Shown: one piece after another, positions 16,136 to 23,132 of the stretch
How the letters are laid out: every line of letters starts with the position of its first letter
Position numbering within the stretch: the stretch's first letter is position 1
Source: an uncultured Erysipelotrichaceae bacterium
GTDB taxonomy: Bacteria > Bacillota_I > Bacilli_A > Erysipelotrichales > Erysipelotrichaceae
DNA: 34,759 nucleotides
NCBI GenBank assembly: GCA_945877405.1
Contig: CAMCSA010000024.1
Span: forward strand, 1 to 34,759
Reading direction: 5' to 3'
Translations under genes and position numbers: made by a program
Notes under the pieces: model-generated
What the model was told of the DNA's origin: nothing
Databases searched by the model: none
What the model saw: only the letters and a program-made list of their open reading frames with translations

Positions 16136-17185
16136 ATGACAACATGTAAAGGATGTGGTGTCCACCTGCAGTATGAAGATCGAGCACTGCCAGGGTATAC
16201 ACCGAAAAAAGAAAGTGAATACTGCCAGAGATGTTTCCGTCTGATTCATTATGACGATCTGACGGTTTCCATGCGGAAAGGCATTGATCCGGATGAGGTT
16301 TTGAATCGCATCAAAGGGATGGATGCTCTGATCTTATGGGTTGTGGATCTGTTTGATTTTGAGGCAGGTATGATTGCTGGACTCAACAGACATCTGGCAG
16401 GTAAGGATATCATTCTAGCCGCAGGGAAAAGAGATCTGTTACCCGATACCCTCAGTGATGAAAAGGTGGCAAGGTTTGTCTTTTCAAGACTCAAGGAGCA
16501 GGGTATCACGATTCAGGAGCTCATCCTGACTTCTGCTTATCAGCAGGAAGGGCTGGAGGAAATCAAAGATGCGGTTGCTCGGTATGGAAGAGGCAGACCG
16601 GTCGTTGTCATGGGAAGAGCCAATGCGGGAAAGAGCACACTGCTGAACAGACTTCTTGGCAATCAAGCTTTGACCATGTCCAGATATCCTGGTACAACAC
16701 TGGATTTCAATCAGATGGAAATGGATGGTGTGACCTGGATTGACACACCTGGTATTGAAATTGATTCCAGTATTCTGATGGAAATCGATGAGAAGGATCT
16801 CAAGACTGTTCTTCCGGATCGCAGACTCAAGCCTGTTGTATTCCAGCTCAGGGGCAATCAGTCCTTTGCGGTTGGTGGGCTTGCACGGATTGATCTGTAT
16901 GGTTGTGATCATGCAAGTGCCGTCTTCTATATGGCACAGACGCTGAACCTGCACCGCAGTAAGGTATCAGCGGCACAGGAGCTTTGGAAAAAACATTATG
17001 GTGAACTGCTTGTACCAGTTGCACTCCACAGGCAGTTCCGTAAATTCTCCATCCGTAAGGAAATGGACAAAATGGACATTGTCATCGATGGTTTAGGCTG
17101 GGTGTGTGTTCATGGAACAATGAAAAATGTGGACGTCTATGTCCCGCAGAATGTCAATGTGACATTCAGAAAGGCAATGCTGTAA
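16136..17185 (+). CDS. yqeH: Circularly permuted ribosome-assembly GTPase YqeH
   Basis: 349 residues; needed for 30S subunit maturation in Bacillus. The N-terminal zinc ribbon has CKGCG (Cys4, Cys7) and CQRC (Cys30, Cys33). The G motifs come in permuted order: G4 AAGKRDLLP (97-100), G5 TSA (132-134), then G1 GRANAGKS (160-167), G2 in the PGTT region and G3 DTPG (203-206). G4 reads GKRD instead of NKxD, so the Asn that reads guanine is replaced by Gly; this could lower guanine specificity. The ATG at 16136 has a short GAGG before it. It begins the ribosome-assembly part of the operon (YqeH, YhbY, RsfS). Confidence 0.92.
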   Translation: MTTCKGCGVHLQYEDRALPGYTPKKESEYCQRCFRLIHYDDLTVSMRKGIDPDEVLNRIKGMDALILWVVDLFDFEAGMIAGLNRHLAGKDIILAAGKRDLLPDTLSDEKVARFVFSRLKEQGITIQELILTSAYQQEGLEEIKDAVARYGRGRPVVVMGRANAGKSTLLNRLLGNQALTMSRYPGTTLDFNQMEMDGVTWIDTPGIEIDSSILMEIDEKDLKTVLPDRRLKPVVFQLRGNQSFAVGGLARIDLYGCDHASAVFYMAQTLNLHRSKVSAAQELWKKHYGELLVPVALHRQFRKFSIRKEMDKMDIVIDGLGWVCVHGTMKNVDVYVPQNVNVTFRKAML

Positions 17186-17186
17186 T

Positions 17187-17474
17187 ATGCTGAATGGAAA
17201 ACAGAAAAGATTTTTAAGAAGTCTTGCCTTAAATGAAAGAGCGATCTTTCAGCTTGGCAAGGACGGTCTTTCCGATAACTATATCGAACAGATCGATCAT
17301 GCACTTGGAGCAAGAGAACTTGTCAAGATTTCCGTGTTGAAAACCGGTCCAAGTGATCTGAAGGAAGTATCGTTTGATCTTGCAAGACTGACGAAAAGTG
17401 AAGTCGTACAGATCATCGGCAGAACAATCGTACTTTACCGTAAGGGCAGATCGCCGAAGATTATCCTGCCATGA
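17187..17474 (+). CDS. yhbY: YhbY-family RNA-binding (CRM domain) protein
   Basis: 95 residues, one CRM domain. It begins LNGKQKRFLRSLAL, then QLGKDGLSDNYIEQIDHALGARELVKISVL, and ends IGRTIVLYRK. YhbY-type proteins bind pre-50S particles. The usual glycines (GKxGL) are present. It starts one base after the yqeH stop with AAAGG a little far upstream, so translation probably depends on coupling. Its own stop overlaps the next ATG (ATGA). aroE, which lies between yqeH and yhbY in Bacillus, is absent. Confidence 0.92.
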   Translation: MLNGKQKRFLRSLALNERAIFQLGKDGLSDNYIEQIDHALGARELVKISVLKTGPSDLKEVSFDLARLTKSEVVQIIGRTIVLYRKGRSPKIILP

Positions 17475-18259
17475 TCATTGAAGCATCATTTGATCCTGTA
17501 ACAGTGGAAATGGTACAGGCAATCCGTAACCTGATGAAACAGGAAGGGATACATGAAGTGTATGTGCAGCCAGGTAATGAAGGAATTCTGTCTGTTGATC
17601 AAAGAGTCAGACTGCTCAGACTTGCATTTGCATCGTACAGACATATTCATGTCACAAAAGGAAAAAAGGCAGATCGGATTCTTACCGGTTATGAAGAAAA
17701 TGAGAAACTGGCAAGAAGCGGATATTTCCGGCTTGTACCTGCATCTGTACGTCGTGATCTGATTGAAAACAATCTGTATCTGCCACAGATCGTGGAAGCA
17801 CAATGCAGTCCACATCGTGCCATTCATTCTAAAGGTGTGGCAGATACATGTGTCATTCTGGCACGTGCACACCATTTGGATGAAAAACTTGCAGAAAGAA
17901 TGGGTTATCTGCATGATGTGACAAAAGCAATGTCAAATGAAGAAGGCGAGGCTGTTTTACGCATATGGAGTCCATCAGATCTTTCCCTGAATCCTAAAAT
18001 CTGGCATTCCCGTACAGCTGTATTCTGGCTGAAGCACAACATGGGACTGTATGATCCGAAAGTACTGATACCGATCTGGAATCATACACTGGGACAGGGA
18101 AAATCCGATTATGACCGGATTCTCTATATCGCTGATAAAATTGAACCGAATCGCAATTACGATACAACATACCATCTTTCCCTGGCAAAAAAGGATCTGA
18201 GAAAAGCTGTGGATCTTGTGATGAAGGAAGGGGAAGAATACCGAAGGAAAGGAAATTAA
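17471..18259 (+). CDS. yqeK: YqeK-type HD phosphohydrolase fused to a shortened, degenerate NadD-like domain
   Basis: 262 residues. The C-terminal part (about 110-262) is YqeK, an HD hydrolase that cleaves diadenosine tetraphosphate symmetrically: PHRAIHSKGVADT (His115, His119), YLHDVTKA (His148-Asp149), WHSRTA (His179), WNHTLG (His205) and IADKIEPNR (Asp222). The first ~105 residues look like NadD (nicotinate-nucleotide adenylyltransferase) cut to half size. ASFDPVT replaces GGSFDPxHxGH, so the ATP-binding HxGH is gone, while DQRVRLLRLAF and a relic of the ISSTxIR region (VPASVRRDL, then LYLP) remain. It sits where Bacillus has separate nadD and yqeK. The nucleotidyltransferase half is probably inactive. 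The ATG overlaps the yhbY stop by 4 bases. Confidence 0.85.
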   Translation: MIIEASFDPVTVEMVQAIRNLMKQEGIHEVYVQPGNEGILSVDQRVRLLRLAFASYRHIHVTKGKKADRILTGYEENEKLARSGYFRLVPASVRRDLIENNLYLPQIVEAQCSPHRAIHSKGVADTCVILARAHHLDEKLAERMGYLHDVTKAMSNEEGEAVLRIWSPSDLSLNPKIWHSRTAVFWLKHNMGLYDPKVLIPIWNHTLGQGKSDYDRILYIADKIEPNRNYDTTYHLSLAKKDLRKAVDLVMKEGEEYRRKGN

Positions 18260-18260
18260 C

Positions 18261-18608
18261 ATGTCAGAGTTATTGAATATTGTATGTAACACACTGGATG
18301 AAAAACAGGCGGAAGATATCGTAACCATCGATATGCGCTCTGTAAATCCATACAGTGATTATTATGTGGTATGTACTGCAAAAAATGTCAGACATGCCAT
18401 GTCACTATGTGATTTCTGCAAAGAAGAGGCAGAAAAAAACGGTTATATGGTAAGACTGACAGAAGGGGATCGTGAAAGTTCATGGATCCTTCTTGATCTC
18501 AATGAAGTCGTTGTTCATATCTTCACATCTGAAGCAAGAGACTTCTATCGCCTGGAGCGTCTTTGGGCAGATCTGCCACAGCAGCAGTATACAGAAAACG
18601 TACAGTAA
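18261..18608 (+). CDS. rsfS: Ribosome silencing factor RsfS
   Basis: 115 residues. It binds uL14 on the 50S subunit and blocks subunit joining in starvation. Family features: DIVTIDMRSVNPYSDYYVV, then EGDRESSWILLDLNEVVVHI and FYRLERLWADLP. The ATG at 18261 starts one base after the yqeK stop, with AAGGAAAGG upstream. It is the last gene of the parE operon and keeps the standard yqeK-rsfS order; the cmoA-like methyltransferase that often follows is missing. A strong hairpin follows. Confidence 0.93.
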   Translation: MSELLNIVCNTLDEKQAEDIVTIDMRSVNPYSDYYVVCTAKNVRHAMSLCDFCKEEAEKNGYMVRLTEGDRESSWILLDLNEVVVHIFTSEARDFYRLERLWADLPQQQYTENVQ

Positions 18609-20522: not shown

Positions 20523-23132
20523 TTACTGTTGTGATTCGGAAGCAGGAGTTGTTGGTGTTTCCGTCTTGTCACCAGTTTCCGGTTTTTCCGGTTCAACTGG
20601 TGGCTCCGGTTCCGGTTCAGGCTCCGGTTCAGGCTCCGGTTCAGGCTCCGGTTCCTTAGGAGTCTTGAAGGCAGAGCACATCTCATTGGATGTATCATCT
20701 GACTTTTCAAATCCATAGTAACCGCAGACTTCCACATCGGCATCATAGCCAAGGCCATCTACAACCTGTTTCATTGTTTCAGATGTATTGGATACTTCTT
20801 TGATCGTAGTACCGTTAACTCTGATTCTTGCCTTATAAACGATGTTGCCGTACAGACCTTTCGCATCGAAGAAGTTCATATCCGAAGCATTCTTATTGAG
20901 GGTAGAAAGTTCTGTATCACCAGGATATTTTGCCCAGTTGAATGTAATTTCAGATGTGTTTTCGTTATAGGATGCAGAGAAGGAAGAAATATTCTTGAGT
21001 TCTGGCTTATCGGCACTGTAGCTCTTCAGCTTTGCGTAGTCGGATTTGATCAGACCTGTTGTCTTCAGATCATCTCTGCCTTCCGGTACTGCCATGTATG
21101 GCCAGCTTCCCTTGATGAAGGAAATGGATTTGACACTTTCAGGCTGCTGCAGAGTTGCAGGAACACTGCCATCGGCATGGCATGCATCCAGCACCGCACT
21201 GAGGATATAACCTGTTTCATTGATGAAGTTTGCAAAGTAGTTGTTACCGCCGACTTCAGCTTTTTCCCATCCTGCCCAGATTGCGGAAGTATACATCGTA
21301 TCATTGCATACCATCCATTTGTCTTTCATGGCACCTACTGGAATACCATACTCCAGACCAGAGTCACCCCAGTCGCTTGTACCTGTCTTTCCATAGGTTG
21401 CATAGTTTCTGATCAGTACCTGCAGGAAATTGTTTGTTGTGGTATGAACCGCGGAATACATCAAGGAGCTTGTCATATAGGCGGCAGCTTCTGACATGAC
21501 CTGTACTTTTTCGTACTGTGGTTCAATCGGATCCTGATGACCATTACGGTATTCAATCTTTGTAATCGTATGTGGTGTGATGTAATAACCACCATTCATT
21601 TCTGTTGCATGTGCTGCAGCAAGCTGTTCAACCGTACATACAAAGTCATTACCACCAATGGAATAGGCGATGTTGAACCCATCTGCCACTGAATCATCAA
21701 AGCCAAGGCTCTTCATGTATTGTACATACCAGTCATATCCCTTGACATCAATGACATTCTGCATTGCCTGCATGGCAGGAGTGTTCAGGGAATTGGCAAT
21801 TGCATATGTCAGATCGACAACACCGGTTGTTGCACCATAGGCATTCTGGAATGTCCATCCACCGATGGTAATCGGTTTATCAGAAAGCATATGTGCAGTT
21901 GACCATCCACAGTAATCAAAGGTTGGGGCATAGTCAAGGAATGGTTTGACAGTTGAACCTGGCTGTTTGTACTGCTCAGTTGCGTGGTTGAGAAGCATGG
22001 AACCGCCGGAATAGGAACGTCCTCCGCCAATGCCGACGATTTCACCAGTCTGATTGTTGAGTGTGATCAGACCGATTTCTTCGGTATCGCTGTAGAAGTT
22101 GATGCCATATTCGCCAGACTCGATACTTTCAATCGTATTCTGGATTGTCGGATTCATGGCTGTATAGATCTTCATGGATACATTGAATGGATCCTGACCT
22201 GTGATTTCCAAAGCTTCTTTCAGTGCTTCATCAATATAGGCCTGATACTGATAGCCGTTTGAATCCAGTGTGCTGTACTGGTCAATCAGCAGATCTTCTA
22301 CTCTGATACTTGTTGCCAGTGCATATTCTTCATCATTGATATAACCATGTCTGTTCATCAGATACAGAACGTTGTTTCTTCGATCCGTTGCATGGTCCAG
22401 ATAGTTATGTGGGTCATAGTAATATGGAGAGTTGATGATACCGGAAAGCAGGGCACATTCGGAGATGTTCAGCTGACTGACGGATTTACCGAAATACTGC
22501 TCCGCTGCTTTCTGTACACCACGGATATTACCGACGCCACCGAAGTTCATCTTATTCATGTACATCTCGAAGATCTGTTTTTTGGTTGCCTGTTTTTCCA
22601 GCTGCATGGCAAGATCAATCTGCTGGATTTTATATTCGATATCACGTGTTTTGGAAATACCGTTATCATCATTCTGGAAATATGTCAGCTTGACTAACTG
22701 CATCGTGAATGTGGAACCGCCAGACACGTTGTGCTTGATGACAGTATCGATCATTGATTTAACAAAACGTGGAATATCAAATCCGTTATGCGTGAAGTAG
22801 CGGGAGTCTTCGATGGAAAGGAATGCATCGACAAGTGCTTCCGGTACCTGATCATAGGTGATGTTTTCGCGTAACTGCGAACCGACGTCAGCGATTTCAT
22901 TGCCATCCTTATCATAGACAAGAGTGGATTGATTTGTTTCAAAGTCTGAAAGACTCAGTTCCGGTTCACTTTGCAGAAAGGTGTCAATCGCCATGATTCC
23001 GACTGCTCCAAACACCAGTTCGAAACCGACCAGAATCGCCATGATGAGTGTCAGGAAACGGAACCCATGGAATTTTCTTTTTGCTCCAGGGGGAATGATT
23101 TTCTTCTTTCTGCCTGATCTGTTGTTTTTCAT
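20523..23132 (-). CDS. ponA: Class A penicillin-binding protein 1A (glycosyltransferase/transpeptidase)
   Basis: 869 residues. It polymerises and cross-links peptidoglycan outside the membrane. A basic N-tail (KNNRSGRKKK...) is followed by one membrane helix (about 25-50). The GT51 domain has EDSRYFTHNGFD (Glu108), GGSTFTMQLVK (138-148) and IFEMYMNKMNFG (Glu189). The transpeptidase has STVK (Ser393-Lys396), SLN (448-450) and KTGT (582-585). The C-terminal region has a fibronectin-III-like stretch (about 720-820), a run of nine Glu-Pro pairs and a Thr/Pro-rich end. ATG overlaps the recU stop (ATGA), with GGAGG 8 nt upstream. The recU-ponA order is as in Bacillus. GGSTFTMQ differs slightly from the usual GGSTITQQ. 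Confidence 0.96.
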   Translation of the reverse strand: MKNNRSGRKKKIIPPGAKRKFHGFRFLTLIMAILVGFELVFGAVGIMAIDTFLQSEPELSLSDFETNQSTLVYDKDGNEIADVGSQLRENITYDQVPEALVDAFLSIEDSRYFTHNGFDIPRFVKSMIDTVIKHNVSGGSTFTMQLVKLTYFQNDDNGISKTRDIEYKIQQIDLAMQLEKQATKKQIFEMYMNKMNFGGVGNIRGVQKAAEQYFGKSVSQLNISECALLSGIINSPYYYDPHNYLDHATDRRNNVLYLMNRHGYINDEEYALATSIRVEDLLIDQYSTLDSNGYQYQAYIDEALKEALEITGQDPFNVSMKIYTAMNPTIQNTIESIESGEYGINFYSDTEEIGLITLNNQTGEIVGIGGGRSYSGGSMLLNHATEQYKQPGSTVKPFLDYAPTFDYCGWSTAHMLSDKPITIGGWTFQNAYGATTGVVDLTYAIANSLNTPAMQAMQNVIDVKGYDWYVQYMKSLGFDDSVADGFNIAYSIGGNDFVCTVEQLAAAHATEMNGGYYITPHTITKIEYRNGHQDPIEPQYEKVQVMSEAAAYMTSSLMYSAVHTTTNNFLQVLIRNYATYGKTGTSDWGDSGLEYGIPVGAMKDKWMVCNDTMYTSAIWAGWEKAEVGGNNYFANFINETGYILSAVLDACHADGSVPATLQQPESVKSISFIKGSWPYMAVPEGRDDLKTTGLIKSDYAKLKSYSADKPELKNISSFSASYNENTSEITFNWAKYPGDTELSTLNKNASDMNFFDAKGLYGNIVYKARIRVNGTTIKEVSNTSETMKQVVDGLGYDADVEVCGYYGFEKSDDTSNEMCSAFKTPKEPEPEPEPEPEPEPEPEPPVEPEKPETGDKTETPTTPASESQQ
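20602..20655. repeat. Hexanucleotide tandem repeat coding the (Glu-Pro)9 tail of PBP1A
   Basis: Nine 6-base units, alternating GGCTCC and GGTTCA/GGTTCC, are read on the other strand as nine Glu-Pro codon pairs. Each unit is two codons, so copy-number change would alter tail length without breaking the frame. Confidence 0.95.

Follow-up and report, generated by a model that had tools for sequence, protein, structure and literature searches.

A half-size NadD-derived domain fused to the HD hydrolase YqeK in Erysipelotrichaceae

In many Gram-positive bacteria NadD and YqeK are encoded as a fusion or in a cluster, and in Bacillus nadD and yqeK sit in a neighbourhood of the yqeH/yhbY/rsfS type. 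We examined a gene of this neighbourhood in which YqeK follows what appears to be only half of a NadD domain, and asked where this half comes from, what it has lost and why it is still encoded. The gene lies in a contig of an uncultured Erysipelotrichaceae bacterium (GenBank assembly GCA_945877405.1, CAMCSA010000024.1); the whole stretch of 34,759 nucleotides that was analysed is referred to below as the window. The stop codon of the yhbY/yqeI-like gene overlaps the start of the fusion gene by 4 bases (ATGA). Among 85 relatives searched with phmmer, the yhbY/yqeI-like gene was beside the fusion gene in all 85, the yqeH-like ORF in 83 and the rsfS/yqeL-like gene in 67. Further along the window, an ORF on the minus strand (20523-23132) encodes a penicillin-binding-protein-like product of 869 aa with a long C-terminal Glu-Pro repeat tail (EPEPEP...).

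Table 1 Features of the half-NadD/YqeK locus, in window coordinates.
Feature	Position	Strand	Basis
yqeH-like GTPase gene, upstream	16136..17185	+	ORF
yhbY/yqeI-like gene, upstream of the fusion gene	17187..17474	+	ORF
Half-NadD/YqeK fusion gene, 262 aa	17471..18259	+	ORF, ATG start; architecture common to 33/36 genus-mates
Half-size NadD domain (b1-a1-b2-a2-b3 + C-terminal helices), residues 1-105	17471..17785	+	hhalign, AF2, VIA-align
Former GGSFDPIHxGH motif, now ASFDPVTVEM (residues 5-14)	17483..17512	+	Column counts, 45 genus sequences
Internal deletion junction, residues about 66-76	17666..17698	+	Profile gap; secondary structure of two models
Former ISSTxIRxG motif, now EKLARSG (residues 78-84)	17702..17722	+	E 44/45, R 42/45, G 45/45
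YqeK HD hydrolase domain, residues 106-262	17786..18256	+	TIGR00488; H119, H148, D149, K152, H179, H205, D222
rsfS/yqeL-like gene, downstream	18261..18608	+	ORF

A truncated NadD fold ahead of a complete YqeK site

The C-terminal half of the protein scored 98 bits against TIGR00488, above the curated cut-off of 70.15, and residues 95-262 of its AlphaFold2 model superposed on the YqeK structure 2ogi (Z 21.2). Equivalents of all the residues that coordinate metal and bind ADP in S. pyogenes YqeK (H29, H58, D59, K62, H91, H117 and D135; PMC11857287) are present in the window protein (7/7; Table 1), in keeping with an earlier reading of the DNA, the preliminary description, which had seen all expected metal and substrate residues in this half. 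The same seven residues were 100% invariant across 85 relatives with full, half and NadD-less architectures. The window protein is predicted to hydrolyse Ap4A or related dinucleotides.

Residues 1-106 alone had no credible match in Pfam and reached only E = 0.029 against the TIGR00482 NadD model, and the N-terminal part went unrecognised in single-sequence searches of Pfam, NCBIfam and PDB sequences, so that searches of this kind cannot prove a NadD origin. A profile built from an alignment of 45 genus sequences aligned with the profile of fused NadDs from the same taxonomic family (hhalign E = 8e-13), with that of the sister family (E = 5e-10) and with that of standalone NadDs (E = 3e-11), as compared with E of about 0.3-0.8 for the HD half as a control, and a best E no better than 2e-4 after column shuffling (n = 20). 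The segments ASFDPVT, DQRVRLLRLAF and VPASVRRDL, which the preliminary description had picked out as NadD relics, aligned with GGSFDPIH, xxRxxMIxxAI and xxPxVLRYI of full fusions. The AlphaFold2 model of the window protein was of high confidence (pLDDT 96.8, pTM 0.91), and its residues 1-104 matched the crystal structure of Mtb NadD (4s1o) with Z 11.7 and rmsd 2.2 over 104 aligned residues (VIA-align); an unrelated fold, which would have spoken against the relics, was not what structure prediction returned. Residues 1-105 share descent and the Rossmann nucleotidyltransferase fold with NadD.

What is missing was located by comparison with the predicted structure of the full NadD-YqeK fusion of Erysipelothrix tonsillarum. 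In that model, strands (E) and helices (H) form a first series (E2-9, H16-28, E33-38, H51-62 and E68-71), a middle series (H73-76, H84-93, E97-104, H105-113, H117-123 and E125-130) and a last series (E141-143 and the C-terminal helices). Between the two predicted models, the first and last series are present in the window protein and the middle series is gone, which corresponds to residues about 73-130 of the full fusion, that is, two helices, beta4, two helices and beta5. The profile alignment places the loss in a single gap of about 64 columns, with a few residues also missing at the former NPWK loop.

The motifs that flank the deletion have decayed as well. At the former GGSFDPIHxGH motif, FDP is retained and GG, both His and the second Gly are gone; in the alignment of 45 genus sequences the H15 position holds T or S, and the H18 position holds E or D in 40 sequences and M in the window protein (residue 14). 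The positions of S150 and S151 in the former ISST are acidic, the latter being E in 44/45. The Trp and GxDQ positions of NadD fall within the lost block, and with it the whole NaMN-binding middle (YTIDT, GxDQ, W) is absent; of ISSTxIRxG, in which SST has been replaced, the R and G alone remain. Equivalents of NadD R54, R155 and G157 are retained in 45/45, 42/45 and 45/45 sequences, respectively; P9, R45 and G84 are invariant across the genus, and D8, E78 and R82 nearly so. With the catalytic motifs and substrate positions gone, the sequence excludes an active NadD, and the old NadD site is unlikely to bind phosphate. The idea of a half-size, catalytically dead NadD domain is thus borne out, with HxGH and the middle block absent and the fold confirmed.

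Distribution of architectures and replacement of NadD

The half-NadD/YqeK architecture was found in 33 of the 36 genus-mate genomes, with 37-50% identity across the whole length. The window protein as a single query gave no match against the genome contigs, and the alignment as query succeeded. Isolates carry the half form too, for example Lactimicrobium massiliense (G034, NZ_OUNG01000001.1), and the remaining half-form loci belong to Solobacterium and Erysipelotrichaceae records, mostly from ruminant gut. Relatives in the genus likewise lack HxGH, and thus an intact motif in close relatives, which would have pointed to a sequence error here, was not found. In one genus-mate (G014:C102:1381-2122) a frameshift or a sequencing error divides the half-NadD/YqeK gene between two frames.

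Across the family, lengths ahead of the HD motif fell into three modes, of about 222-230 residues in full fusions, 137-161 in half forms and 66-72 where the NadD part is missing. All 24 genomes of the sister taxonomic family carried the full fusion. An in-between form (L125) has 186 residues ahead of this motif and is short of 36 N-terminal residues instead of about 70, and the forms of genera g42, g68 and g63 still have the second His. Decay has gone further in g34, where the FDP and R/PYR motifs are gone from the half domain, and in g18, g52 and g60, which have lost the NadD module and retained YqeK. The preliminary description had called the window protein an intermediate; this holds only in part, in that the half state is stable across the genus and clearer intermediates exist elsewhere (L125 and g42/g68/g63).

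That NAD synthesis would rely on another gene, also proposed at the outset, agrees with the genome, which encodes one intact NadD (210 aa, 110 bits against TIGR00482) on contig C3, directly after pncB (nicotinate phosphoribosyltransferase) and before nadE (NAD synthetase). We surveyed 145 genomes from the taxonomic family to which the window belongs. Of the 46 short-type genomes, 39 also encode a separate NadD, as compared with 0 of the 89 with a full fusion (Fisher p = 4e-27, shared ancestry ignored), and no second NadD was found in the 24 sister-family genomes with the full fusion. In the NadD tree, fused NadDs make up one side of a branch (support 100/99), and standalone NadDs form several deep groups outside this clade. 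Since none falls inside it, fission of a local fused NadD is ruled out as their source; the standalone NadDs are replacements, not split-off copies, and were probably acquired more than once.

No NadD was recognised in seven short-type genomes, for which replacement is an incomplete account unless the gene fell into gaps in the assembly. In five of them that are 93-98% complete (G078, G115, G148, G106 and G132), matches to the nucleotidyltransferase family were only of CoaD, TagD, RibF or TmcAL size. The genomes without NadD could belong to NAD scavengers or contain assembly gaps. Two standalone NadDs seem to have new partners within their own frames. The one in genus g68 (L251, G112:C20:2400-6000) is fused ahead of a glutamine-dependent-NAD-synthetase-like protein (nitrilase and synthase, judged by eye) and would thus have acquired a new partner in the enzyme that acts next in the pathway; the one in g33 (L249, G076:C7:22600-26200) is followed in frame by a region judged by eye to be nitroreductase-like, in a 419-aa frame.

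We also assessed how often the fused NadD was shortened. Parsimony on the HD-domain tree and on trees of conserved neighbours required 5 changes of the full state, and supported branches force at least 2 of them. A single origin of all short forms was weakly rejected by the HD tree (AU p = 0.031), and a constraint joining only the g39 and g42 half forms as one clade was not rejected (p = 0.58). More than one truncation event in the family is likely.

Constraint on the half domain and its possible role

We estimated dN/dS from close genus pairs with unsaturated dS (0.1-0.6), and obtained 0.11-0.26 in the half domain versus 0-0.12 in the HD domain. Values were 0.04-0.39 in half domains of other genera and 0.04-0.11 in active fused NadD. 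These results indicate that constraint on the half domain is relaxed two- to threefold relative to a working NadD, yet clearly present; the half domain is under purifying selection and is not junk, a finding compatible with any function. The complete loss of the module in g18, g52 and g60 shows that it is dispensable in some backgrounds.

We consider it slightly better than an even bet (a probability of roughly 0.55) that the half domain is a structural part of YqeK that outlasted the replacement of NadD, itself perhaps a repeated event. The ancestor would have been a complete bifunctional NadD-YqeK fusion, of the kind still seen in the sister family and in many genera of the same family, and a different NadD, in the pncB-nadD-nadE cluster, would have taken over NAD synthesis in the lineage of the window. 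The motifs for catalysis would then have been lost from the fused NadD, and beta4 and beta5 deleted from its interior together with their helices, about 65-75 residues in all, leaving as its remnant a compact half-Rossmann module packed ahead of an intact YqeK hydrolase. Our guess is that the module is retained structurally, by folding or positioning the HD domain or by shielding its surface; as a further guess, the module may be locked by salt bridges from the conserved acidic positions E14 and E78 to R45 and R82, with the acidic residues standing in for the phosphates of the nucleotide.

It is possible, if doubtful, that the halved catalytic Rossmann domain was instead refitted, perhaps several times, to control or place YqeK as a new domain for regulation or docking. 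Docking proper, with the half domain binding a partner (for instance the new NadD, the ribosome-associated YqeH/YhbY/RsfS of the neighbouring genes, or a second copy of itself through the exposed beta1 edge) and bringing YqeK to its substrate, would suit the purifying selection, the new conserved charged positions (E14 and E78 with R45, R57 and R82) and the conserved yqeH and yhbY neighbours, and contact with NadD would be rewarded if YqeK cleans up NadD errors, as has been proposed (PMC9426524). We nevertheless regard docking as unlikely, as genera differ in which of several deep clades supplied their standalone NadD, which makes one conserved NadD-docking surface improbable, and g18, g52 and g60 have dispensed with the module. 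The nucleotide-sensing role suggested in the preliminary description, with a half domain that still binds nucleotide and tunes Ap4A hydrolysis, draws on the retention under selection of a nucleotide-binding fold with its FDP loop and the Arg of ISSTxIR. Against this, the GG loop, both His and the Trp, GxD and Ser-Ser positions are gone, the missing block holds the NaMN-binding part, and the acidic residues at the H18 (E/D in 40/45) and S151 (E in 44/45) positions would repel phosphate. With substrate-binding positions lost and two phosphate-contact positions now conserved Glu, the suggestion is not supported, and a sensor appears quite improbable.

Two further explanations were considered. A leftover on its way to loss would be expected to show the weaker constraint seen here relative to the HD domain and active NadD, and other genera do decay further (g34) or lose the module completely; such a passing relic is nonetheless improbable, given dN/dS well below 1 in nearly every unsaturated pair, retention throughout the genus at 37-50% identity with P9, R45 and G84 invariant, and a compact fold predicted with confidence. 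A mistake in sequencing or assembly, or a full fusion turned pseudogene, might be suspected in a draft genome of 86 contigs with a genus-mate (G014) whose gene is split in two frames. This is refuted by the 33 of 36 genus-mates and the isolates, L. massiliense among them, that carry the same frame, open and of equal length, and it has next to no probability. The reading as a structural remnant of the replaced NadD is the one we favour.

Relation to known NadD and YqeK proteins

The closest known system is the NadD-YqeK fusion (NF005519/PRK07152; JCVISYN3A_0380), which the window protein resembles in domain order, type of neighbourhood and HD active-site residues, and from which it differs in that its NadD half lacks the catalytic motifs and about 65-75 internal residues. 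Against NF005519 it scored 114 bits, below the cut-off of 315, and matched profile positions 170-342 only. With the symmetrical Ap4A hydrolase YqeK (TIGR00488; 2ogi, 2o08, 8wmy) it shares the HD domain and all metal- and ADP-binding residues, but standalone YqeK is without the N-terminal half-Rossmann module. Compared with the nicotinate-nucleotide adenylyltransferase NadD (TIGR00482; 4s1o, 1kam), residues 1-105 retain the fold minus its middle and the FDP and R-x-G positions, and lack HxGH, SST and the NaMN-binding block, features by which NadD activity would be excluded. Full fusions in Mollicutes, mentioned in the preliminary description, are documented in mycoplasmas (PMC9426524). Substrates of the YqeK domain in the JCVI-Syn3A fusion also include NaAD, CTP and UTP analogues of NaAD, and 8-oxo-GTP, and it has been proposed that YqeK repairs the mistakes of NadD in that organism (PMC9426524). 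A half-NadD/YqeK protein was not described in the literature covered by our search, which was incomplete, and the half form appears to be a previously undescribed variant of the known fusion.

The family Erysipelotrichaceae offers a natural uncoupling experiment. Close genera differ in whether YqeK is fused to an active NadD, is fused to its dead half or stands by itself, with NAD synthesis located elsewhere. As the three architectures occur side by side in one family, the idea that YqeK serves NadD becomes testable, and comparison of these genera could tell whether YqeK needs NadD adjacent to it. The half domain is also a case of a domain under selection despite the loss of its chemistry and half its fold, of a kind that annotation pipelines overlook. 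Beyond this family, 198 sampled genomes of the class yielded one similar gene, in a genome of a distant family (G240), which encodes a 320-aa YqeK (L297:858-1820) beside a YqeH-like gene. The N-terminal region of this protein, about 145 aa, is degenerate and has neither GGSFDP nor HxGH, and the same kind of decay may have occurred there independently.
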